This document shows positions 11,570-24,238 of a DNA stretch of 64,000 nt, piece by piece (the stretch's first letter is position 1; every line of letters starts with the position of its first letter). Below the pieces are notes generated by a model, which saw only the letters and a program-made list of their open reading frames with translations, ran no database searches and had not been told where the DNA came from. Position numbers and translations under genes: made by a program. Origin of the DNA: Verrucomicrobiota bacterium (lineage in GTDB: Bacteria > Verrucomicrobiota > Verrucomicrobiia > Opitutales > Opitutaceae); NCBI GenBank assembly GCA_016871595.1, contig VHCY01000002.1, positions 1 to 64,000 of the forward strand, read 5' to 3'.

Positions 11570-13489
11570 ATGACCTTCCCCGCCCTCGTCCGCCGCGCCC
11601 TGCCCTTCGCCCTGCTTGCCCTGACGGCCCTCGCCGCGGACCGGCCCAACATCCTCTGGCTGACCAGCGAAGACCACGGGATCGAGATGGGCTGCTACGG
11701 GGACCAGCTGGCGCGGACGCCCAACGTCGACGCGCTCGCGGGCAAGGGGATGATTTTCCGCCGGGCGTGGTCCGTGCATCCCGTGTGCGCCCCGGCGCGC
11801 ACCGCGATTATCTCGGGCCTCTACGCGCAGAGCAGCGGCGGGTTGCATATGCGCTCGATGGTCACACTGGGGGCCGGCCAGCGGATGTATCCCCAGTTCC
11901 TGCGCGAGGCAGGCTACTACGCGACCAACAACAGCAAGGAGGACTATAATCTCCGCAAGCCTGAGGGCGTCTGGGATGACTCCTCCGGCCAGGCCCACTG
12001 GCGCAACCGTCCCGCGGGGCGCCCGTTCTTCGCCATCTTCAACTCCACCAAGAGCCACGAGAGCCAGATCCGGACGCGGCCGCACCAGGCAATCACCGAT
12101 CCGGCGAAGGTACGCGTGCCGGCTTACCACCCGGACACCCCGGAGGTGCGACAGGACTGGGCGCAGTACTACGACCAGGTGAGCGAGGCCGACGCCGACG
12201 CGGGCGCGCGCCTGCGCGAGCTGGAGGCAGCGGGTCTCGCCGAGGACACGATCGTGTTCTACTACGGGGACCACGGGAGCGGGATGCCCCGCAGCAAGCG
12301 CTGGCCCTCGAACTCCGGCCTGCACGTGCCGATGGTCGTTTATTTCCCGCCCAAGTGGCGGCCGCTGGCGCCGAAGGAGTACCAGCCCGGCGGGCGCTCG
12401 GACCGCCTCGTCAGCTTCGTCGACCTCGCGCCGACCGTGCTGAGCCTCGCGGGGGTCAAGCCGCCGGCCTGGATGCAGGGACACGCCTTCGCCGGGCCGC
12501 ATCAAGTCGCGGGCCCCGCGTTCCTCCACGGCGCGCGCGGGCGGATGGACGAGCGGATGGACGCGGTGCGCAGCGTGACGGACGGCCGCTACGTCTACCT
12601 GCGCAACTTCCACCCGCACGTCTCCCAAGGCCAGCGGGTGGACTACCAGTTCCAGACCCCGACGACCCGCATCTGGCGGGAGCGCTTCGACGCCGGACAG
12701 GCTACCGAGGCGCAATCCCTCTTCTGGCGGACGCCGAAGGCGCCGGAGGAGCTCTACGACCTGCAGAGCGATCCCGACGAGGTGCGCAACCTCGCGGGCT
12801 CGGCGGCCCACCGCGCCATTCTGGAGCGGTTGCGCGCCGAGATGCGCGGCCACGCGGAGCGGGTGCGCGACCTCGGCTTCCTGCCGGAGGGCGAGATCCA
12901 CAGCCGCGCCGCCGGCACGACCCCGTATGACTTCGCACGCGATGAGGCACGCTTCCCGTTCGGTCGTATCTACGCCGCGGCGGACCTCGCCTCGGGGCTC
13001 GATCCGGCCGCGACTCCGCGTCTGGTCGCGTTGCTCGCGGACGGCGACTCGGCGGTAAGGCACTGGGCCGCGCTCGGGCTGCTGATGCGGGGTCCCGTCG
13101 CCGTCAACGCCGCAGTCGCCCCGCTGCGGGAGGCGCTCCGCGACGGCTCCCGTCTGGTGCGGATCGTGGCGGCACAGGCGCTGGCGCAGAACGGCCCCCC
13201 GGCGGAGTTGCCGGGTGCCCTGGCCGCGCTCCGCGAGTTGCTCCCGCCCGCGCAAAACGGGTTTTTCGTCTCCACGTCCGCCCTCGCCGCCGTCGAGGCA
13301 CTCGGCGCCAAGGCCGCGCCGCTGCACGAGGTGGTGCGCACGATGAGTCCCCAAGGTCCCGCCCCGGACGCTCGCTACGACTCATACATCCCGCGCCAGA
13401 TCGCCAACCTCACCGGCGCGCCTGCCGCCGCCCCCGAAGGCGAGGGCGCGCGCAAGGCCAAGGGCCGCCGCAAGAACACCAAGGACTGA
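11570..13489 (+). CDS. Secreted sulfatase with HEAT-like C-terminal repeats
   Basis: Type I sulfatase of about 639 aa, probably acting on sulfated polysaccharide or glycan in the periplasm. ATG 11570 is preferred over 11537 because it gives a clean signal peptide (MTFPALVRRALPFALLALTALAA). The metal-binding start is 'PNILWLTSEDHG', and the formylglycine motif CxPxR is 'VCAPARTA' with Cys73, so it would need oxidation by a maturase. 'YYGDHGSGM' gives another active-site metal segment. From about residue 490 the protein continues past the sulfatase fold into helical repeats ('TPRLVALLADGDSAVRHWAALGL') resembling HEAT repeats, possibly for substrate or partner binding. It ends in a lysine/arginine-rich tail. 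It is first of three sulfatase genes in a row. Confidence 0.9.
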   Translation: MTFPALVRRALPFALLALTALAADRPNILWLTSEDHGIEMGCYGDQLARTPNVDALAGKGMIFRRAWSVHPVCAPARTAIISGLYAQSSGGLHMRSMVTLGAGQRMYPQFLREAGYYATNNSKEDYNLRKPEGVWDDSSGQAHWRNRPAGRPFFAIFNSTKSHESQIRTRPHQAITDPAKVRVPAYHPDTPEVRQDWAQYYDQVSEADADAGARLRELEAAGLAEDTIVFYYGDHGSGMPRSKRWPSNSGLHVPMVVYFPPKWRPLAPKEYQPGGRSDRLVSFVDLAPTVLSLAGVKPPAWMQGHAFAGPHQVAGPAFLHGARGRMDERMDAVRSVTDGRYVYLRNFHPHVSQGQRVDYQFQTPTTRIWRERFDAGQATEAQSLFWRTPKAPEELYDLQSDPDEVRNLAGSAAHRAILERLRAEMRGHAERVRDLGFLPEGEIHSRAAGTTPYDFARDEARFPFGRIYAAADLASGLDPAATPRLVALLADGDSAVRHWAALGLLMRGPVAVNAAVAPLREALRDGSRLVRIVAAQALAQNGPPAELPGALAALRELLPPAQNGFFVSTSALAAVEALGAKAAPLHEVVRTMSPQGPAPDARYDSYIPRQIANLTGAPAAAPEGEGARKAKGRRKNTKD

Positions 13490-13503
13490 ACCCGATTCCC
13501 CCG

Positions 13504-14976
13504 ATGCGCCTCCTCCTCACCCTTGCCCTGTGCGGCACCCTCGCTGCGACCGCGGCCGAGCGTCCGGCCAAGCCCAACGTGCTGTTCTTTGCCGTGGACG
13601 ACCTCCGGCCGGAGTTCGGCGCCTACGGCGCGGGATATGTGCACAGCCCCAACCTCGACCGCCTCGCCCGCGCGGGCGTGACCTTCACCCGGGCGTACTG
13701 CCAGCAGGCCGTCTGCTCCCCATCCCGGACCGTGGTGATGACCGGCACCCGTCCCGACACCAGCAAGGTCTGGGACCTCGAGACGCACTTCCGCAAGGCG
13801 CTGCCGGACGTCGTGACGGTCGGCCAGCACTTCAAGCAGCACGGCTATTTCGTGCAGGGGATGGGCAAAATCTTCCACGGGGGCTTCGACGACGCGCCCA
13901 CCTGGTCCGTGCCGTGGCAGACCCCGCGCGCCAGCGGGGCCTACGCGCGCCCCGAGAACGTGGCTCTCACACAGCGGGCGCCGGCCGCGGCCGCACCCGG
14001 CGACCGGAAAGCCGCGCGGAAGGCGGCGAAGGGGCCCCGTGGTCCGGCCTTCGAGTCGGCGGACGTGCCCGATAATTACTACACCGACGGCCGCACCGCG
14101 GAACTCGCGGTGGAGACCCTGCGCGAGCTCGGAAAGAAGGGCGCCCCCTTCTTTCTCGCCGTCGGCTTCGCCAAGCCGCACCTGCCGTTCGTGGCGCCCA
14201 AGAGATACTGGGATCTCTACGATCCCGCGAAGATCACGCTCGCGCCCAACCGCTTCCGCCCCCGCGGCGCGCCCGACTACGCGATTTTGCCCGGCGGGGA
14301 ACTGCGCTCCTACCACGGGATTCCCGAGGGCCCGATCCCCGATGACCTCGCCCGCCAGCTCAAACACGGCTACTATGCCGCGATCAGCTATATGGACGCC
14401 CAAATGGGCCGCGTGCTCGACGAGCTCGAGCGCTCCGGCTTGAGGCAGAACACGATGATCGTCCTCTGGGGCGACCACGGCTGGAAGCTCGGGGAGCACG
14501 ATGCTTGGTGCAAACACTCGAACTCCGAGAACGACACCAACGCCCCGCTCCTGCTCTCCGCCCCTTGGCTGGGCACGGCCGGGGCCAAGTCGCGGGCGCT
14601 GGTGGAGTTCGTCGACATCTATCCGACCCTCGCCGACCTCGCTGGCCTGCCACTGCCGGGCCACCTCGAGGGCCTGAGCTTCAAACCCGTCCTCGAGCAA
14701 CCCGACCGCCCGTGGAAGACCGCCGCCTTCAGCCAGTATCCGCGCTCGAATGGCGGCCGCAACCTGATGGGCTACTCGATGCGGACCGAGCGCCACCGCT
14801 TCACGGTCTGGGTCGAGCGGGGGAACCCCGCGAAGGTGGAGGCCCTCGAGCTCTATGATCACCAGTCCGACCCGCAGGAGAACCAGAACCTCGCGGCCGC
14901 GCCCGGGCAGCAGCCGCTCGTTGAACGCCTGATGACGCAGTGGCGGGCCGGCTGGCGCGGCGCGCTCCCCCGCTGA
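13504..14976 (+). CDS. Secreted sulfatase, iduronate-2-sulfatase-like
   Basis: A 490-aa sulfatase with a signal peptide (MRLLLTLALCGTLAATAAE). 'PNVLFFAVDDLRPEFGAYG' and 'VCSPSRTVVMTGTRPDTSKVW' are typical of the iduronate-2-sulfatase-like group; Cys71 of CSPSR is the residue that becomes formylglycine. 'LAVGFAKPHLPFVAPKRYWDLY' and 'LWGDHGWKLGEHDAWCKHSN' are the other conserved blocks of that group. It begins 14 bp after the preceding sulfatase and ends 11 bp before the next, so the three are probably one transcript. The true sulfate ester substrate is unknown; marine or plant polysaccharide, or host glycosaminoglycan, are all possible. Confidence 0.92.
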   Translation: MRLLLTLALCGTLAATAAERPAKPNVLFFAVDDLRPEFGAYGAGYVHSPNLDRLARAGVTFTRAYCQQAVCSPSRTVVMTGTRPDTSKVWDLETHFRKALPDVVTVGQHFKQHGYFVQGMGKIFHGGFDDAPTWSVPWQTPRASGAYARPENVALTQRAPAAAAPGDRKAARKAAKGPRGPAFESADVPDNYYTDGRTAELAVETLRELGKKGAPFFLAVGFAKPHLPFVAPKRYWDLYDPAKITLAPNRFRPRGAPDYAILPGGELRSYHGIPEGPIPDDLARQLKHGYYAAISYMDAQMGRVLDELERSGLRQNTMIVLWGDHGWKLGEHDAWCKHSNSENDTNAPLLLSAPWLGTAGAKSRALVEFVDIYPTLADLAGLPLPGHLEGLSFKPVLEQPDRPWKTAAFSQYPRSNGGRNLMGYSMRTERHRFTVWVERGNPAKVEALELYDHQSDPQENQNLAAAPGQQPLVERLMTQWRAGWRGALPR

Positions 14977-14987
14977 GGACCCTCCTG

Positions 14988-16421
14988 ATGCCCCGCCTCC
15001 TGCGCCTGCTTCCGCTCGGCCTGCTCGTCGCCTCCGCCTGGGCGGCGGCACCGGCCCGGCCCAACGTGCTGCTGGTCGTCGTCGACGACCTCAACACCCT
15101 GCTCGGCGCGTACGGCCACGGGCACGTGAAGTCCCCGGCGATCGACCGCCTGGCGGCGCGGGGTGCCCGCTTTGAGCGCGCGTACGCCCAGTACACGCTC
15201 TGCAACCCGAGCCGCGTGTCGTTCCTGAGCGGCCGCCGGCCGGAGACCAGCGGCGTCTACATCCTGGGCACCCCGGCGCGGACGGCGCTCCCGGACGCGG
15301 TGCTGCTGCCGGAGCACTTCCGCCGCCAAGGCTACTACACGGCCGGCGCGGGCAAGGTCTTCCACAACGTGCGCACCAGCGATCCCGCGGCGTGGGATCA
15401 CTACGAGGACGGCGCGGGCGACGACGCGGAGGAGCAGGCGGCGATCGACGCCCGTTACGGCGGCGGCGACGGCCGGCCCCGCGCGCACGTCCTCAGCTCG
15501 GACGGCTCCCGCACGCGCGACGGCCTCAACGCCCGCACCATCCGCCGTCTGCTCGGGGAGCGCGCGGCCGCGGGCGGATCCTTCTTCCTCGCCCTCGGCT
15601 TCCACAAGCCGCACCTCCCGTGGACGGCGCCCCGCCGGTTCTTCGACCTCTACCCTCCTGCCAGCATCCCCATCCCCGCGGAGCCACCGCTGCGCGAGGT
15701 GCCGCCGATCGCGTTGCAGACGGAGCTAACCGGTTTCGCCCAGCCTGACTCCCGCGCCGCCGCCATCCAGGGCTACCTCGCCTGCGTCTCGTTCATCGAT
15801 GAGCAACTGGGATTGGTCCTCGATGAGCTGGACCGCCTTAAACTCACGGAGAACACCCTCGTGGTGCTCTTCAGCGATCACGGATTCCACCTCGGGGACC
15901 ACGGGGGCCTGTGGGCGAAACTCACCGCCTTTGATGCCTCCACCCGCGTGCCGCTCCTCGCCGCCGGCCCCGGCATCCCGCGCGGGACGGTTGTTTCCAC
16001 CCCGGTCGAACTGCTCGATGTCTACCCCACGCTGGTGGACCTCGCCGGCCTGCCGAAGCCAGCGGGCCTCGAGGGCCGCTCCCTGCGACCGCTCCTCGCC
16101 AATCCCGGCGCCGCGGGAAACGCCCACAGCCTCGTCTATCACTACGACGTCGGACGCCGGCTCGATGTGGCGGGTCGCACCGTGATCGGGCCCCGGTGGC
16201 GCTACACCGAATGGGGCGGCGGCGAATTCGGTCGGGAGCTCTACTGGCGACCCGATGACCCGGAGGAATACCACAACCGGATCGCCGATCCCGCCCTCGC
16301 CCCCACGCTGGCGGAGGCCCGTGCCCAACTGGCGAAGTTGCCCGCGCCCAAACCCGTCCCCGCCAACCGCCCCCGCGCGATCGATCCCGACGCCAAGCGG
16401 GCGAAGCAGAAGCGGAATTGA
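14988..16421 (+). CDS. Secreted sulfatase, iduronate-2-sulfatase-like
   Basis: Third sulfatase of the series, 477 aa from ATG 14988, where a signal peptide (MPRLLRLLPLGLLVASAWAA) begins; the ORF start at 14940 lies inside the previous gene and is less likely. A GGA-containing stretch (tgaggac) sits about 8 bases upstream. Conserved pieces are 'PNVLLVVVDDLNTLLGAYGH', the formylglycine motif 'LCNPSRVSFLSGRRPETSGV' (Cys72), 'LALGFHKPHLPWTAPRRFFDLY' and 'LFSDHGFHLGDHGGLWAK'. It is closely similar in plan to the preceding gene, which suggests duplication. No formylglycine-generating enzyme or radical SAM maturase is encoded nearby, so maturation must depend on a gene elsewhere. Confidence 0.92.
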   Translation: MPRLLRLLPLGLLVASAWAAAPARPNVLLVVVDDLNTLLGAYGHGHVKSPAIDRLAARGARFERAYAQYTLCNPSRVSFLSGRRPETSGVYILGTPARTALPDAVLLPEHFRRQGYYTAGAGKVFHNVRTSDPAAWDHYEDGAGDDAEEQAAIDARYGGGDGRPRAHVLSSDGSRTRDGLNARTIRRLLGERAAAGGSFFLALGFHKPHLPWTAPRRFFDLYPPASIPIPAEPPLREVPPIALQTELTGFAQPDSRAAAIQGYLACVSFIDEQLGLVLDELDRLKLTENTLVVLFSDHGFHLGDHGGLWAKLTAFDASTRVPLLAAGPGIPRGTVVSTPVELLDVYPTLVDLAGLPKPAGLEGRSLRPLLANPGAAGNAHSLVYHYDVGRRLDVAGRTVIGPRWRYTEWGGGEFGRELYWRPDDPEEYHNRIADPALAPTLAEARAQLAKLPAPKPVPANRPRAIDPDAKRAKQKRN

Positions 16422-16428
16422 GAGTCGC

Positions 16429-17763
16429 TCAGGGCCGGGCGCCGACGACGGGCTGCACCCAGGCCGTCTCCCATTCACCAGGCACGCTCCCGTCGGCCTT
16501 GGGCTTGGAGGAGATCACTTTCGCGCGGACGTAGAGTTCGTCCCCCTTCAGGCGATACTCGGCGCGCGGGCCGGTGCTCTCCGCGAGCACGGTCCCGACC
16601 TCCGGGCTGTACCGGCGGTGATTGAGGGTCCGGCGGGCCGGTTTCTCATCGGCGGGTGCGATCATCTCCTCACTGCGGCGGTCGAAACCGCGCCGGGTGC
16701 CGATGAACTGGATGCGGTACGACACGCCCGCCTCCGGCTCCACCTCGACGGCGAGCCGCCCCGGCTCACGCACCACCTCCCGCAGGGTCACCCCGGACGT
16801 GCCGTAGAAATCACCCGCCTCCAGCGCGCGGATCAGCGACTCCGCGGTCAGGTGGCGGGCCCGGACCATCACCCAGCCGCGCCCCGAACTGCTCCGGCCG
16901 GGACCAACCTTGTGGTAGTGGTGCGAATCATCCGTGGCCACGCCGTAGACCACGCCGAAATTGAGCTCGGAGAGACGGAACGCGAGGATCGCGTCCCACA
17001 TCGCGTCCATACTGAGCCGGGTGGCGTCGCCCGCGTTCTCGACTCCGGGATGGCCGTTGTAGACCTCGAAGAACCGGAGCCGCTCGACGCGCATCATTTC
17101 CTCGGCGGTCACGCCCCAGCGGAAGTTCGGGTGATTGAGGTGGGCGAACATCGGCTGGCCGGTCCGCTCGCGCTGGGCATCCACCGCCTCGAGGGTGCGC
17201 TGCATCACGGTGACCGCGTCCGCGGCGTTCACCGCGGGCACGAGATCGCGGGGATTGGTCACATTGATGTGCACGGGGCCGGTGAGCGCGGGAGCCGTTT
17301 CCGACTTTGGCCGGGTCCAGGCGCCGGTGATCTCCTCCGCGGGGATGAGCAGAAACTTGCCCGGCTCGTTCAGCAGCGGGGCAAATTCCACCAGCGGTTT
17401 CAGCCGCACCTCGCGGCGCCCGGAGTTCTCCCGCAGCTCCACCCAATCCGGGCCGAAGCGCCGCAGGTACTTCTGCAAAACCTCGCCGCCGCCGCGCTGC
17501 ACCACCTCACCCTTCAGGGACACCGGGGCCTTCAACTCGAACCAGCGAGTGCCCTCGGAGAGGATGTTGTGGTCCGACAGCGCGAGGAAGTGATAGCCGC
17601 CGCGCTTGTACCAGTCGGCGATCATCTCCGGGTAGTCGTCCCCGTCGCTCCACAGCGAGTGGGTGTGGGTGTTTCCCTTGTACCAGCGGGGCGCCTCGCC
17701 CGCGGGGGCGGCGGCGAACAGGGACGGGAGCAGGAGGGGAAGCAGGTGCAGGGGGATGCGCAT
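16429..17763 (-). CDS. Secreted PHP-domain phosphoesterase/CehA-McbA-like protein
   Basis: A 444-aa exported protein with a signal peptide (MRIPLHLLPLLLPSLFAAAPAG). The PHP metal-binding start is clear: 'YKGNTHTHSLWSDGDDYPEMIADWYKRGGYHFLALSDHN', with the HxH pair and the later His/Asp of the first metal site, and further His residues in 'MFAHLNHPNFRW' and 'DDSHHYHKVG'. Members of this group hydrolyse phosphoesters or act as metal-dependent carboxylesterases; the substrate here cannot be told. It converges on the third sulfatase with only 7 bp between them, so it is a separate unit, divergent from the small membrane protein at 17879. A catabolic role next to the sulfatases is a guess from position. 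Confidence 0.8.
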   Translation of the reverse strand: MRIPLHLLPLLLPSLFAAAPAGEAPRWYKGNTHTHSLWSDGDDYPEMIADWYKRGGYHFLALSDHNILSEGTRWFELKAPVSLKGEVVQRGGGEVLQKYLRRFGPDWVELRENSGRREVRLKPLVEFAPLLNEPGKFLLIPAEEITGAWTRPKSETAPALTGPVHINVTNPRDLVPAVNAADAVTVMQRTLEAVDAQRERTGQPMFAHLNHPNFRWGVTAEEMMRVERLRFFEVYNGHPGVENAGDATRLSMDAMWDAILAFRLSELNFGVVYGVATDDSHHYHKVGPGRSSSGRGWVMVRARHLTAESLIRALEAGDFYGTSGVTLREVVREPGRLAVEVEPEAGVSYRIQFIGTRRGFDRRSEEMIAPADEKPARRTLNHRRYSPEVGTVLAESTGPRAEYRLKGDELYVRAKVISSKPKADGSVPGEWETAWVQPVVGARP

Positions 17764-17878: not shown

Positions 17879-18343
17879 ATGCCGTCCGATCCGCCCACCT
17901 TGCGTGCCCTGCGCTGGTGCGCCCGGCTGCTGGGTGCGTCCCTGGTCGGCCTGATGCTGCTGATCGCCGCCGGCGAGGGCCTCCCGCGCGCGGACCAGTT
18001 GGGCACCCGCGAGTGGATCCTGTTCGCCGCGTTGACCGCGATCGCGGCCGGACATCTGCGACTATGGCTCCGCGAGGGCGCGGGCGCGATGCTGGGCCTC
18101 GCCGGCTACGCGCTCTTCCTGGGGGTGCAGGGCAACCCCCTTTCCCCGCGGCTCGCCTTCGTCCACCTGCTGGCGGTGCCTTCGGTACTTGCGCTGGCCG
18201 CGGCGCGCTGGGCCCGGATCAGGCGAACCGCCGCATCCGGTCCCGCACGTCCGTCTGCAGCCGCTCCAGGTAACCCAGCGTGTACGCCTCCGGGGACAAC
18301 GCGGGATCCTGGATCAACGGGGTCAGGTCCATCGCCCACGTGA
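17879..18343 (+). CDS. Small multi-helix membrane protein (DUF7670-like)
   Basis: About 154 aa from ATG 17879, preceded by 'acgagg', a usable ribosome binding site; the ORF track start at 17843 is less convincing. Three to four hydrophobic segments are seen: 'LLGASLVGLMLLIAAGEG', 'WILFAALTAIAAGHL', 'AMLGLAGYALFLGVQ' and 'FVHLLAVPSVLALAAA'. The pattern 'LLIAAGEGLP...' followed by a glycine-rich second helix resembles a family of small uncharacterised membrane proteins. The last 125 bp overlap the convergent PIG-L gene and encode a low-complexity tail, so the functional part probably ends near residue 125. Function unknown. Confidence 0.55.
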   Translation: MPSDPPTLRALRWCARLLGASLVGLMLLIAAGEGLPRADQLGTREWILFAALTAIAAGHLRLWLREGAGAMLGLAGYALFLGVQGNPLSPRLAFVHLLAVPSVLALAAARWARIRRTAASGPARPSAAAPGNPACTPPGTTRDPGSTGSGPSPT

Positions 18344-19070
18344 TGCCGGCCATCCGGTCCGTCGCGTGGGAGGTGTGGAACGTGGCGTGCGCCTGCCGGC
18401 GGCCGACGGTGGCGAGGTCGTAGCGCTTGCCGCCGGCGACCTGGGAATCGAAGACCTTGAGCAGGTCGAGGGCGAGGTCGGGATGGCGGCCCGCATCCAA
18501 GGCGACCTTGTCGGCATCGACCAGCCAGTCGAGGTCGCGCCAGACCTCGCAGCCGAGCACGCGGCGGGGCCGGCGTGCGGCCGGCAGGCGGCGGAGGGCC
18601 TCGAGGCAGCGCAGGAAGACCGCCACGTGGGTGTCGTGTTTGTCGGCCGGGTTGTGCAGGTAAACCACCTGCGCAGCGCAGCCCCCGAAGATCAGATCGA
18701 GGTCGGCCGCGACGCCCGGGTGCCCGGGTGACTTCACCACGCTGCTGGGATGCGCGAGCTGGAGCTGGATCGCGTACCGCCCCAGCCGCGCGGCGGCGCG
18801 CTGCTCCTCGCGGCGCACCCCCTGCATCTGCGCGTCATCGAGGTGCGCATAGGGCCCGGTGCGCGGGGAACCGGCGCCGTTGGTGACCACGACGCCGCCG
18901 AACGCGAGCCCGGGTTGATCGAGGCAATCGCTGATGCCCGCGTGCGCCATAATCTCAATGTCATCCTGGTGCGCGCCGAGGCAGAGGTGCGTGACCCGGC
19001 CGAGCGCCGCCTCGGCGCTCGGGTCGGTGGCGGAAAACAGGATGTCAGCCTGAGGTTGGGTGAGTTTCAT
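18219..19070 (-). CDS. PIG-L family deacetylase (stand-alone, intact zinc site)
   Basis: A 283-aa metal-dependent N-deacetylase of the LmbE/PIG-L type, which usually removes acetyl from N-acetylglucosamine-containing substrates. ATG 19070 starts MKLTQPQADILFSATDPSAE. The zinc motif appears as 'LGAHQDDIE' (His34, Asp36, Asp37) with Gln in place of the usual Pro, and the second half of the site is 'NPADKHDTHVAV', which has the HxxH pair. No signal peptide is seen, so it is cytoplasmic. It is the last gene of a minus-strand operon with a ROK kinase-like gene only 8 bp upstream and the kinase-NagB-PIG-L fusion before that. Role in amino-sugar processing is inferred from these neighbours. Confidence 0.88.
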   Translation of the reverse strand: MKLTQPQADILFSATDPSAEAALGRVTHLCLGAHQDDIEIMAHAGISDCLDQPGLAFGGVVVTNGAGSPRTGPYAHLDDAQMQGVRREEQRAAARLGRYAIQLQLAHPSSVVKSPGHPGVAADLDLIFGGCAAQVVYLHNPADKHDTHVAVFLRCLEALRRLPAARRPRRVLGCEVWRDLDWLVDADKVALDAGRHPDLALDLLKVFDSQVAGGKRYDLATVGRRQAHATFHTSHATDRMAGITWAMDLTPLIQDPALSPEAYTLGYLERLQTDVRDRMRRFA

Positions 19071-19078
19071 CGATGGAA

Positions 19079-20476
19079 TCAGACCGGGCGGAGGGCGGGC
19101 AGGCTGGCGGCGGCGATCGCTTGGCCGTGGCGTTTGTCCTTCTCGTCCGGGGTGTGCAAGCGGACCCGGGCGGCAAGTTCCGGAAAATCGGCGCGGAGGA
19201 CCTCGCGGGCCCGCTGCAGCAACCGGTCGCCGCCGGCGCCGGAGGTCACGCGGCCCAGCACGAGGAGGTGGCGCAGGGCGTAAAAGTCGGCGTAGTGGGC
19301 GATCGCGTAGCCGAAGGAGGTGCCGATCGACTCGTAGATCCGGGCGGCGCGCTCGTCCCCGGCCGCCATCGCCTCCTGCACGCGGATCAGCTGTTCCGGC
19401 AGGGGCAGGCCGGCGGGAAACTCCAGCCCGGCGACGGGGGCGAGCCGACCGACCGCCTGCTGCGAGAAGTATTGCACCCCGCAACCGGCGTCGCCGGACC
19501 ACTCGTCCCGCGGGGCCTCCGGGTGGTAGTCGACCGGCGCGAAGGCCAACTCGTTCAGCCACGGGGTGATGCCGCCGGAAGGCGTCACGTAGCCCGCGGC
19601 GAGGCTGGTGCCCATCGCGATGCCGAGCACGGCGCCGTCGCCGAGGCTCATCGAACCCGCGAGCGCGGTGACCTCGCCGTCGTTGGCGACCTCGAAGGGC
19701 ACGCCGCCCCAGCGCTCCTGGAGGGTGAAGAACATCCGGCGCACGTGCGCTTCGAACGCCGCGGCCGGCACCCCTCGGAACAGGGAGGCGACCCGCACCT
19801 CGTTGTTCACGTAAATGCCCGCGGCGCTGCCGCCGATCGCATCCACCCGCGGCAGGTGGCGGGCCGCCCGGACGAGGGAGTCGTGGATCCCCTCGAGGTG
19901 GTAGTCCGGGTCCTGCTGGAAGTAGGGATCCCAGGCGATCTCCTCCGAGTAGACCACCTTGCCGTCGATGACCGCGGCGGCCTTGCGGTCGCTGCCGCCC
20001 AGGTCGAACCCGATCCGGCACCCGTCGAGGTGGCGGCCCACCGGCAAGGCGGCGACGGCCTCCGCGGGCAGTTCCGCGAGCGGCTGCGCCTCGATCCGGA
20101 ACGCAGCCCGGAAGGTGCGTTCGCCCATAAAGGCGTGGTCGAAGGCGCGCGCGCCGCCGGGGGCGTACACCGCCGCGAGATGACGGGCGACCTCGTCGGC
20201 CCCGCCCACGGAGACGTGGCAGCCGCCCCGTTGCCAGAGGAGGAACTTGAGCAGGCGCTCGGCGTAAACCAGCGTCAGCGCCGCCTGCGGATGACCCGCG
20301 CCCAGCACGCGACTGTCGTGCCGCGAGACCGCGCCGCCCGGGGAGCGGAGCACGAGCACGAAGGGCCGCGCCCCGGGATCCGCGGCGACCAGCGCCCCGT
20401 AGGCGCGGTTCCAGATGGCGGCCGGGACGAAGTGTCGCTCGAGGGACGGCCGCAGGGAGGGGGCCAGAGCGAGCAT
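19079..20476 (-). CDS. ROK-family sugar kinase-like protein with long N-terminal extension
   Basis: A 465-aa protein whose phosphate-binding motif 'IGFDLGGSDRKAAAVIDGKVV' appears only at about residue 155. The rest follows the ROK plan: 'VDAIGGSAAGIYVNNEVRVA', 'VPFEVANDGEVTALAGSMS' and 'AVLGIAMGTSLAAGYV', the latter forming the second phosphate loop. The first 150 residues contain no domain I can name ('HFVPAAIWNRAYGALVAAD'). ATG 20476 is used; a TTG at 20491 would overlap the previous stop. The gene starts 11 bp after the NagB fusion stop and is followed at 8 bp by the PIG-L gene. ROK proteins phosphorylate hexoses such as glucose, N-acetylglucosamine or N-acetylmannosamine; this one has no DNA-binding domain. 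Confidence 0.85.
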   Translation of the reverse strand: MLALAPSLRPSLERHFVPAAIWNRAYGALVAADPGARPFVLVLRSPGGAVSRHDSRVLGAGHPQAALTLVYAERLLKFLLWQRGGCHVSVGGADEVARHLAAVYAPGGARAFDHAFMGERTFRAAFRIEAQPLAELPAEAVAALPVGRHLDGCRIGFDLGGSDRKAAAVIDGKVVYSEEIAWDPYFQQDPDYHLEGIHDSLVRAARHLPRVDAIGGSAAGIYVNNEVRVASLFRGVPAAAFEAHVRRMFFTLQERWGGVPFEVANDGEVTALAGSMSLGDGAVLGIAMGTSLAAGYVTPSGGITPWLNELAFAPVDYHPEAPRDEWSGDAGCGVQYFSQQAVGRLAPVAGLEFPAGLPLPEQLIRVQEAMAAGDERAARIYESIGTSFGYAIAHYADFYALRHLLVLGRVTSGAGGDRLLQRAREVLRADFPELAARVRLHTPDEKDKRHGQAIAAASLPALRPV

Positions 20477-20487
20477 CGGAGTGGCGA

Positions 20488-23400
20488 TCAATCGAGGTGC
20501 GCGCGGGAGAAGCCCTCGAGGGCCTCGTAGTCGGCCAAACCCAGCTTGTCGTAATTGGCCGCCAAGGCGCGGTTCTGCTGCTCCGCCTGCTGCCAGGGTT
20601 CGCGGAGACCGGCGGCCACCGGCGTCTGGCTGCGCTGGGACTTGTGGTGGAACACGGCTTGGATCTTCTGTGCCAGCTCACGCGGGCTGAGCGGCACCGC
20701 CATTTCGATTTCCGCCGCCTCCCACGGCTGCTCGACCCCGCGGTACGCCCAGATCCGGCAGTCCTTGGCCCATGCCTCGCCGGCCACCTGCCGCCACACC
20801 TGCCGGACCAATTGGTAGCCGACCGCGGTGATCGAAGAAGGGTCGTCCCGCTCGCCCGTGAGGAAAATCTGGTTTGGCGTCAGGTCGCGCAGCAGCTTGG
20901 CCACCGCCGCCAAGTCCTCCGCGCCGGGCGCGAACTGGCGGTAGCGCCCGCGCTCGTAGAACCCGAGGTCGAGGAAGCGGGCCTGGCCCGGACCGTAGCC
21001 GCAATCTCGCAGCGAGGCGCGCGCCTCCCCGCGGCGCAGGAGGCCTTTCAGCCGGCGGATCGAGGTCGAGTCCGCGGCAAAGGCCGCCTTTTCCAGGAGT
21101 TCCTTGCGGGTCGTCCGCGCAAACTCCGCCACCGGACCCTCCGCCCGCGCAAGGGTCTCCGCGATGTCGCCCACGAGGTCCGCCGCCATCACCGCCTCCT
21201 CATCCGGCACGGCGAGATTGCCGGAGGTCAGGTAGACGACCGTGACGGCGTGCCCCTGGTCCTTGAGCCGGCGCAGCGTGCCTCCCATCCCGAGCACGTC
21301 GTGGGAGGGCTCCGGGCTAAAGACCACCACCCGCTTCGGGAACGGCAGGGCCCGCTCGGGGCGAGAGCTGTCGTCCGCGTTGGGCTTGCCGCCGGGCCAA
21401 CCGGTGATCGTGCGCTGGATCTCGTTGAAGATCCTGATGTTCAACCCGTAGCTCGGGCCCTGCTCGGTCAGGAGATCCGCCATCCCGTGCTCGCTGTAAT
21501 CCTCGTCCAGCAGCTTCAGCACCGGTTTCCCAACGGTCTGCGAGAGCCACATCACCGCGCGGCGGGCGAGCACCGGGCTCCATTCGACCGGAGTGACCAA
21601 CCACGGGTGGCGGACCCGGGTGAGCGAAGACGCCGCGGCCGCGTCGAGCAGGAAGCGGACCTGCGGGTGTCCCTGCAGGAAACTGGCCGGCAGGGCATCG
21701 GAAGGCGGGGCCTCGACGGCGGCGGCGACGACGGCGGCCTTGGACTCGCCCCACGCGAGCAGCACGATGCGGCGCGCGTCGAGGATGGAGCCGACGCCCA
21801 GCGTGATGGCGTGACGGGGCACATTGGCCTCGCCGAGGAAGTCGCGGGCCGCATCGCGCCGGGTGAGACCATCGAGGGTCACGAGGCGGGTGCGGGACTC
21901 CCGGCTGGAGCCGGGCTCGTTGAAGCCGATGTGGCCGGTGCGGCCAATGCCGAGCACCTGCAGGTCGAGGCCGCCCGCGGCGCGGATCCGCTCCTCGTAG
22001 CGCCGGCACCACGCGAACACCTCGCCGCGCGGGACCGTGCCATCCGGGACGTTCACGTTGGCCGCCGGGATGTCGAGGTGGTTGAAGAGCTGCTCGTGCA
22101 TGAAGCGCCAGTAGCTCTCTGGGTGCTCGCGCGGGAGCCCGTAGTACTCGTCGAGGTTGAAGGTGATGACGTTGCGGAAGCTCAGGCCCTCCTCGCGATG
22201 CAGCCGGATCAGCTGCCGGTACAACCGGACCGGGGTGGAACCGGTGGCGAGGCCGAGCACCGTCGGCTTGCCGGCGCGGTCGTGGGCGCGAATCAGTTCG
22301 GCGATTTCGCCCGCCAGCCGGGCGCAGGCGTCATCAGCCGCCGGGAAGATCTCGGTCGCGATGCGCTCGCGCTGCTGGGACTCGCTGGAGGTGGGGATCA
22401 TAGGGGCGGAAGCGGTGGCGGTTGAAGTGCGGCGAGTGCGGGCGGCAAGGCGGCGGACGACCGCCTCCATCGCCTCGCGCTGGTCCTCCAGGCTCCGCAC
22501 CAGCGCGAACTGGCTGCGGGCCCGGTCGAGGTTGTGGCCTTCGCGATGGATGCGGAAATAGGCGTCGCCCTCGAGGTGATCGGTCAGGAAGCGCATCCCG
22601 ATCTCGAGGGCGATCAGGCGGCCCGCGAACGCGAGTTGACCGATCTCGGCCTCGTTCAGCAATCCACCCGTGCCCGCCAGGTAGCCCTCGACCAGCGCCT
22701 CGAAGATTTCCGGCCGCGCGCGCACCTTGGCCAGGTCACGCTCGTCCTCGGGCGCAGCGTTCGTCGCGGAACGCACTAGGTCCCCGAAGTCGTAGAGCGC
22801 CAGCCCTGGCATCACGGTGTCGAGGTCGATGACGCAGAGCCCGGCCCCGGTGCGATCGTCGATCAGGACGTTGTTCAGCTTGGTATCGTTGTGGGTGACG
22901 CGTTCGGGCAACTCCCCCCGCGCGTGCAGGTCGAGCAGCCGGTCGACCATCGGCTGGCGCTCGCGGACGAAGGCCAATTCGGCGGCGACCCCCGCCGCCC
23001 GGCCCCGCCGGTCCTCGGATGCGACGCGGACCAGGGCGTCAAAACGGTGCCGCGTGTGGTGGAAATCCGGAATCGTCTCCCGGAGGCGCTCCCCGGGCAG
23101 GTCGCCCAGCATACGTTGGAACTCCCCGAACGCGCGCGCCGCCTCCCGCGCCATCGCGGGGCCCCGGATCACGTCGTGCGAGGTCGCGTCCCCGATGAAC
23201 ACATAGCAGCGCCAAGCGCCGGTCGCGTCCCGCAGCAGGTTTTCCCCGCCCCGGGTCGGGATCAGCGTGAGGACACGCCGTTGCGGGTCCGGCACCCCGG
23301 CGGCGAGCGCCCGCCGCCCGGCGTGGGCCGTGACCCGCGCCACGTTCTCCATCACGGCGTCCACGTCGCGGAAGACGTGCTCGTTGATCCGCTGGAGAAT

Positions 23401-23565
23401 GTAGCGGGTGGCGACGCCGGCCTGCTCGAAGGTGACCGCGAAGGTGTCGTTGATGTGCCCGTTGCCGTGGGGCGCCCCGCCGCAGTAGGTGCCGCCGAGC
23501 CGGAAGGCGGCGGCGACCGAGCGGAGGACGGCGGCGTCGATGGTCGCGGAGGGCATCCCAACCAT
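20488..23565 (-). CDS. N-acetylhexosamine kinase-like / NagB / PIG-L-like fusion protein
   Basis: One uninterrupted frame of about 1025 aa joins three parts. Residues 1-375 are an aminoglycoside-phosphotransferase-fold kinase resembling N-acetylhexosamine 1-kinase: 'GHINDTFAVTF', 'RVTHNDTKLNNVLIDD' (catalytic Asp) and 'CVIDLDTVMPGLALYDFGD'. A 14-residue Arg/Thr/Ser/Ala linker follows. From Met389 (22401) comes glucosamine-6-phosphate deaminase: 'VLGLATGSTP', 'FNLDEYYGLP' and 'GIGRTGHIGFNEPGSS'. From about residue 740 the PIG-L-like domain follows, 'VFSPEPSHDVLGMGGTL', but with zinc ligands replaced. NagB converts glucosamine-6-phosphate to fructose-6-phosphate and ammonia. NagB plus PIG-L in one chain is known; the kinase in the same frame is unusual. 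An internal start at 22401 could also yield separate NagB-PIG-L protein. First frame start is ATG 23565 or 23556. Confidence 0.8.
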   Translation of the reverse strand: MVGMPSATIDAAVLRSVAAAFRLGGTYCGGAPHGNGHINDTFAVTFEQAGVATRYILQRINEHVFRDVDAVMENVARVTAHAGRRALAAGVPDPQRRVLTLIPTRGGENLLRDATGAWRCYVFIGDATSHDVIRGPAMAREAARAFGEFQRMLGDLPGERLRETIPDFHHTRHRFDALVRVASEDRRGRAAGVAAELAFVRERQPMVDRLLDLHARGELPERVTHNDTKLNNVLIDDRTGAGLCVIDLDTVMPGLALYDFGDLVRSATNAAPEDERDLAKVRARPEIFEALVEGYLAGTGGLLNEAEIGQLAFAGRLIALEIGMRFLTDHLEGDAYFRIHREGHNLDRARSQFALVRSLEDQREAMEAVVRRLAARTRRTSTATASAPMIPTSSESQQRERIATEIFPAADDACARLAGEIAELIRAHDRAGKPTVLGLATGSTPVRLYRQLIRLHREEGLSFRNVITFNLDEYYGLPREHPESYWRFMHEQLFNHLDIPAANVNVPDGTVPRGEVFAWCRRYEERIRAAGGLDLQVLGIGRTGHIGFNEPGSSRESRTRLVTLDGLTRRDAARDFLGEANVPRHAITLGVGSILDARRIVLLAWGESKAAVVAAAVEAPPSDALPASFLQGHPQVRFLLDAAAASSLTRVRHPWLVTPVEWSPVLARRAVMWLSQTVGKPVLKLLDEDYSEHGMADLLTEQGPSYGLNIRIFNEIQRTITGWPGGKPNADDSSRPERALPFPKRVVVFSPEPSHDVLGMGGTLRRLKDQGHAVTVVYLTSGNLAVPDEEAVMAADLVGDIAETLARAEGPVAEFARTTRKELLEKAAFAADSTSIRRLKGLLRRGEARASLRDCGYGPGQARFLDLGFYERGRYRQFAPGAEDLAAVAKLLRDLTPNQIFLTGERDDPSSITAVGYQLVRQVWRQVAGEAWAKDCRIWAYRGVEQPWEAAEIEMAVPLSPRELAQKIQAVFHHKSQRSQTPVAAGLREPWQQAEQQNRALAANYDKLGLADYEALEGFSRAHLD

Positions 23566-23605: not shown

Positions 23606-24238
23606 TCAGGCGGCGAGGGCGTGGCAAGCGAGGAACAGCTCCTCGTCGTCGAGCGCCGGCACGCGGGCGAGCTGCGAGCGGACCGCCGGTTCCCAGAGGG
23701 ACGCCCGGAGGGGGGCGAGCAGCCGCGGCGGCAGATCCGGCTCGGCCACCCGGCGCAGGATCGCGAGCGCCTGGCGGCTGGCCGGCAGGCCGAGCCACTG
23801 CAGCAGCCCGAACGCGCCCTCCCGACCGTGCACCGCCGAGATCTCCGCCCACGCGGCGGCACCGCCGCCCCGCAGCTCGGGATGCGCCGCGAGGAAGCAG
23901 GCGAGCACCGGCGTCTGTTGCAGCTCCGGGATGAGGTCCGGGCACCGCAGGGCCACCAGCAGCGCCGCCATCCGGCCGTGCGAGTAACGGTGGAGCAATC
24001 CCCGCACCTCCGGCGGAACGTACTCCAGGAACCGCCGCCACGCCGCCCCACCCACCCCGAGGGCCGCCGAGGCCAGCGCTCCCGGGGACGGATCCTCCGC
24101 CTCCCAGCGGCCCGGGATCACCTCGCGGTGAAACGCCGCCTCGGGCCAGGCGGTGACGCGGTGGCGGTAACCATCGTGGATCCAGTGCAGGGAACCGGGG
24201 GCAGTGTCGGGGCCGGAAGCGCGGCGAGGGGAGTTCAT
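23606..24238 (-). CDS. Protein of unknown function heading the amino-sugar operon
   Basis: A 210-aa protein that I do not recognise. It starts at ATG 24238 (MNSPRRASGPDTAPGSLHWIHDGYRH) and ends 40 bp before the kinase-NagB fusion on the same strand. The sequence is rich in Leu, Ala, Arg and Pro and looks all-helical from about residue 60, with repeated patterns such as 'RYSHGRMAALLVALRCPDLIPELQQ' and 'LLQWLGLPASRQALAILRRVAEPDLPP' that could be short HEAT/ARM-like helices. No signal peptide or membrane segment is seen. It is divergent from the WYL regulator and shares the small intergenic region that contains an inverted repeat. Reality as a gene is supported by its position and lack of any competing frame. 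Confidence 0.6.
   Translation of the reverse strand: MNSPRRASGPDTAPGSLHWIHDGYRHRVTAWPEAAFHREVIPGRWEAEDPSPGALASAALGVGGAAWRRFLEYVPPEVRGLLHRYSHGRMAALLVALRCPDLIPELQQTPVLACFLAAHPELRGGGAAAWAEISAVHGREGAFGLLQWLGLPASRQALAILRRVAEPDLPPRLLAPLRASLWEPAVRSQLARVPALDDEELFLACHALAA

Follow-up and report, generated by a model that had tools for sequence, protein, structure and literature searches.

The window analyzed here, a 64,000-nucleotide stretch of DNA from a member of the Opitutaceae, carries on its minus strand an open reading frame (23565 to 20488) of 1,025 codons with zero internal stops, which joins a NahK-type kinase, a NagB domain, and a PIG-L domain in one chain (Table 1). Pfam searches of the fused protein returned APH (residues 32 to 276), Glucosamine_iso (410 to 632), and PIG-L (748 to 908). 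In NCBIfam, residues 383 to 1022 matched the whole of PRK02122 (NagB plus PIG-L; NF002557, "glucosamine-6-phosphate deaminase-like protein") at 805.5 bits (cut-off, 384), and the top match of the first third of the protein in a PDB search was the N-acetylhexosamine 1-kinase NahK. Pfam, NCBIfam, and PDB matches thus agree on the three-domain chain that a preliminary description of this DNA had read from the sequence, and we regard the chain as genuine. That description had also reported the absence of a stop between kinase and NagB and had placed Met389 at 22401; its coordinates proved correct. Its estimate of a product of ~110 kDa was close to the mass that we computed (113 kDa), and the pairing of NagB with PIG-L in one chain, which it had described as occurring in other bacteria, is indeed known.

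Table 1. Coordinates of the fused gene, its domains, and the genes downstream of it
Feature	Position in window	Strand	Evidence
Fused gene for NahK-type kinase, NagB, and putative pseudo-PIG-L domain (1,025 aa)	20488..23565 (stop codon included)	(-)	Open frame; Pfam, NCBIfam, and PDB matches; fusion in eight further genomes
N-acetylhexosamine-1-kinase-like domain, residues 1-376	22438..23565	(-)	phmmer (NahK 4ocu); Foldseek (4wh2)
Ala/Ser/Thr/Pro-rich linker, ~residues 376-393, holding Met389 (ATG 22401-22399)	22387..22440	(-)	AlphaFold2 pLDDT; pN/pS
NagB (glucosamine-6-phosphate deaminase) domain, residues 389-653	21607..22401	(-)	phmmer (E. coli NagB); Foldseek (2bkv)
PIG-L-fold domain without zinc/catalytic motif, residues 736-1025	20491..21360	(-)	Pfam PIG-L; motif table over relatives
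Gene for ROK-like sugar kinase (464 aa from ATG 20473; 470 aa from TTG 20491)	19079..20473	(-)	Foldseek; kept next to nagB-PIG-L in relatives
Gene for separate PIG-L deacetylase (AHQDDIE and DTH motifs both intact)	18219..19070	(-)	Pfam PIG-L (4e-10); sequence; kept in operon of relatives

The AlphaFold2 model of the fused protein (30 sequences; mean pLDDT, 85.7) consists of folded domains with a disordered linker between them. Values of pLDDT fell below 50 at residues 380 to 393, and a second low-confidence hinge was located at residues 727 to 731. Among five close genomes, the pN/pS values of the three domains were 0.08, 0.07, and 0.075, indicating strong purifying selection.

The kinase domain matched NahK over residues 14 to 373 in the PDB search (E about 1e-78). 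It was aligned to NahK (PDB 4ocu) by phmmer over residues 14 to 371, essentially full length (E = 3e-78), and to 4wh2 by Foldseek (TM, 0.96 by target; 40% identity). The NahK motifs HND and IDLDT are present in the phmmer alignment (THNDTKLNN and IDLDTVMPG). Compared with NahK/LnpB of Bifidobacterium longum (PDB 4ocu and 4wh1; 40 to 41% identity; TM up to 0.96 by target), the kinase of the window differs in being fused to NagB. The NagB domain matched E. coli NagB (phmmer; E = 8e-60) and TIGR00502 (263.2 bits, above the curated cut-off of 236.9). In Foldseek comparisons, it resembled NagB of B. subtilis (2bkv; 43% identity; TM, 0.95 by target) and of E. coli (1dea; 42%; 0.88 by target), although it is an internal domain of a longer chain, unlike either of these. 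The DEY, GH, and FNEP motifs are retained. At the positions of E. coli Asp141, His143, and Glu148, the domain has Thr, His, and Glu; its GRTGHIGFNEP motif therefore carries Thr in place of the Asp of E. coli NagB and the Asn of B. subtilis NagB. This Thr was found in all PRK02122-like proteins examined. Because B. subtilis NagB, a deaminase according to its PDB entry, has Asn there, this residue is not decisive, and the Thr is no argument by itself for inactivity of NagB.

The PIG-L domain presents a different picture. It matched Pfam PF02585 at 32.5 bits (cut-off, 28.2; 1e-7). The SPHPDDD and DPHGTH segments of intact relatives read SPEPSHD and DDPSSIT here, such that the zinc/catalytic HPDD motif and the distal His motif are missing and are replaced by EPSH and DPSSIT. 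From the general mechanism of PIG-L enzymes, we take these substitutions to eliminate the catalytic Asp as well as zinc ligands. Motif loss was observed in every close relative (at least 58% identity) and in most members sampled in the class, whereas the motif is intact in a second Opitutaceae paralogue and in the NagB-PIG-L proteins of Balneola and Mucilaginibacter. The protein of the window thus departs from PRK02122 both in its additional N-terminal kinase and, as across its whole subfamily, in the missing PIG-L motif. Despite this loss, the domain has a pN/pS of 0.075. The fused PIG-L domain is probably a dead deacetylase and probably has a structural or regulatory role. The "three-part enzyme" of the preliminary description consequently stands as a chain of three domains and falls as a set of three activities, given that the HPDD and DPHGTH motifs are lacking. 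The annotation "NagB + PIG-L" can mislead for this subfamily, where the deacetylase domain has probably lost its activity and its task seems to fall to a separate gene. A class-wide sample (L140 to L159) comprised two kinds of NagB-PIG-L proteins, distinguished by an intact PIG-L motif in the first and a degenerate SPEP motif in the second. The second kind seems to be a pseudoenzyme lineage that is widespread in the class.

Motif loss with retention of the fold in the PIG-L domain of this subfamily offers a precedent for a scaffold, in which one catalytic half of the fusion would be inactive or regulatory and the fusion would serve stoichiometry or oligomer assembly. The Thr at the Asp141 position of NagB points in the same direction. 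We nevertheless judge a scaffold very unlikely, because the kinase retains HND and IDLDT and can be aligned with NahK along its length, while NagB retains DEY, GH, and FNEP and has a deaminase counterpart in B. subtilis that also lacks the Asp.

We compared 27 genomes of the genus to which the window belongs (family Opitutaceae). The in-frame fusion, without stops, was present in nine of them, including that of the window; the most distant fused protein (G212) was 69% identical to the protein of the window. Two of these fusions (G194 and G212) were met again in an independent GTDB scan (as L001 and L002). The nine fused kinase domains formed one clade (SH-aLRT, 91) and the fused NagB-PIG-L parts clustered in their tree (94/56; L135 and L136 in that tree are G194 and G212), and therefore a single origin fits. 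No fusion was found outside the genus in a sample of 200 genomes of the family, in 384 genomes of the class, or elsewhere in GTDB by a pattern-limited scan. A candidate second fusion in Kiritimatiellae (L014 and L015), with kinase and NagB in the same frame, was rejected because stops separate the genes. The fusion genomes are draft assemblies (that of the window is in 444 contigs), which raises the question of an assembly or sequencing artefact; the recurrence of the joint in nine genomes of differing sequence, two of them from the independent scan, makes such an error vanishingly improbable. On this genomic evidence, the fusion is real and inherited, and it is probably of single origin. In an open-access literature search, we found no paper on a kinase-NagB-PIG-L fusion or on NagB-PIG-L proteins.

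An open frame was not accepted as proof by itself, given that shuffled linkers remained open in 62 to 86% of cases; the preliminary description had likewise considered openness alone to be weak. Such chance openness would suit a functionless read-through, in which drift in GC-rich DNA removed the stop, NagB-PIG-L is made mainly from the internal ATG, and the kinase is merely tailed or the fused form is a minority product. Unfused nagB genes are similar in this respect, as the 15 upstream codons are free of stops in 17 of the 19 scored; in all 19, an ATG lies no more than 15 codons from the ESQQRE-type motif. The ATG at the NagB start is kept in seven of the nine fused genomes (the window and six others), and the linker has a high pN/pS (0.54 in the five close genomes and 0.92 in all nine), its core evolving fast compared with the domains; both observations also fit read-through. 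Three lines of evidence go beyond chance, however: the joint recurs in nine genomes, persisting across lineages at 69 to 80% protein identity; linker lengths among the fusions vary in whole codons (21, 19, and 16), i.e., the indels preserve the frame; and the internal ATG has been lost in two lineages. In G205, GCG replaces this ATG and only a GTG is nearby. G194 has no ATG, GTG, or TTG between residues 370 and 404, and therefore its NagB, which is otherwise well conserved, could hardly be made except within the long chain. Functionless read-through is thus unlikely. The nine-genome joint and the two losses of the ATG contradict the version of it raised in the preliminary description, a recent stop loss after which NagB would come solely from the internal ATG. 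Upstream of the internal ATG in the window, pairing with the anti-Shine-Dalgarno sequence was poor, as it also was at several further starts of the window. A shorter NagB-PIG-L protein of 70 kDa could also be made in genomes that keep the internal ATG.

Comparison with homologues placed kinase and NagB in separate genes in most Opitutaceae. Outside the genus, these genes are often ordered kinase-epimerase-nagB, and in five loci from related genera, three consecutive genes encode the kinase, an NAD-dependent epimerase, and NagB-PIG-L. G122, a genome of the genus of the window, has the kinase directly before a separate nagB (71 bases between the matches) with no epimerase; a second genome, G049, likewise has separate, directly successive genes and no epimerase. 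Near the fusions, no epimerase match was obtained in the loci examined. Given the gene order in the relatives, the joint is best accounted for by epimerase loss combined with disappearance of the kinase stop, and we infer epimerase loss followed by stop loss as the simplest route. The genes for kinase and NagB are also found close together, unfused, in Kiritimatiellota (L014 and L015), Lentisphaerota (L030 and L037), and Bacteroidota (L010). The two Kiritimatiellota loci encode a canonical NagB (GSDGHIAFNEP), with stops between the kinase and NagB genes. In L037 (Lentisphaeria), ~1 kb separates the kinase and NagB genes, which share a strand, and an epimerase match occurs somewhere in the locus.

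In the related operons, the kinase with its adjoining epimerase gene is reminiscent of the NahK-GalE pair in the lacto-N-biose cluster (PMC8106489). In 26 of the 27 genomes of the genus, the galacto-/lacto-N-biose phosphorylase family (PF09508) was not found, and galacto-N-biose phosphorylase was rejected as the sugar source on this ground.

Directly downstream of the fusion lies the ROK-like kinase gene, followed by the gene for the stand-alone PIG-L protein; both recur beside nagB in relatives. The ROK-like protein had no sequence match in Pfam, NCBIfam, or PDB. Its top Foldseek matches were ROK kinases (E = 1e-6), obtained from a low-confidence model of the 470-aa form and taken here as no more than a hint. 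It is 70 to 77% identical between species (two full-length comparisons) and possibly represents an undescribed family.

We consider it probable that a true fusion of single origin gave rise to a bifunctional hexosamine kinase-deaminase with a noncatalytic tail. In one event in one Opitutaceae lineage, a NahK-type 1-kinase gene would have been joined to the neighboring nagB-PIG-L of an amino-sugar operon, after the intervening epimerase gene was lost and the kinase stop codon vanished. The product would be a single chain of 113 kDa, its two functional sites connected by a flexible tether of ~18 residues. The kinase domain is predicted to phosphorylate N-acetylhexosamine (GlcNAc or GalNAc) at C1 and the NagB domain to convert glucosamine-6-phosphate to fructose-6-phosphate and ammonia, while the PIG-L domain would be a conserved noncatalytic part, structural or regulatory. 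The separate downstream PIG-L enzyme probably carries out deacetylation and the ROK-like kinase 6-phosphorylation, with NagB finishing the route. The data directly support the fusion, its conservation, the domain identities, the loss of the PIG-L motif, and the gene neighborhood; from these, we infer the activities, their substrates, and a shared pathway for the reactions. The nagA model, which we tried as a guide to the deacetylation route, scored below its curated cut-off in nearly all genomes.

NahK produces GlcNAc-1-P or GalNAc-1-P, and the substrate of NagB is GlcN-6-P. As textbook enzymes, the two would therefore not catalyze consecutive steps: the product of one is not the substrate of the other, and a prokaryotic enzyme converting GlcNAc-1-P to GlcNAc-6-P was stated in 2022 not to have been described to date (PMC9599254). 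Most likely, kinase and NagB belong to one salvage program at nonconsecutive steps; otherwise, there is either a further step between 1-phosphate and 6-phosphate or a domain specificity not yet described. It seems quite unlikely that the fusion marks a catabolic route not yet described, with the NahK-type kinase and the NagB-type deaminase processing connected intermediates through a new 1-phosphate to 6-phosphate step or through altered specificity of one domain. If such a route existed, glycolysis would be fed by way of sugar-1-phosphates.

Fixation of a gene fusion provides good evidence for cooperation between the joined proteins, and the present fusion ties a NahK-type 1-kinase to NagB, enzymes whose textbook substrates are unconnected. 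The link between them can be assayed in one protein. The architecture is new and the chemistry, as far as can be told, is ordinary; the fusion rearranges known enzymes in a modest way.

A 210-aa protein without a Pfam or NCBIfam match is encoded immediately upstream of the fusion, at 23606 to 24238 (minus strand); its matches next to a fusion were confined to the closest relatives of the window. Near the operon, at 11690 to 16421 and 16429 to 17763, are sulfatase genes and a gene for a CehA/McbA-like metallohydrolase (score below the curated cut-off), which suggests a sulfated-glycan context.
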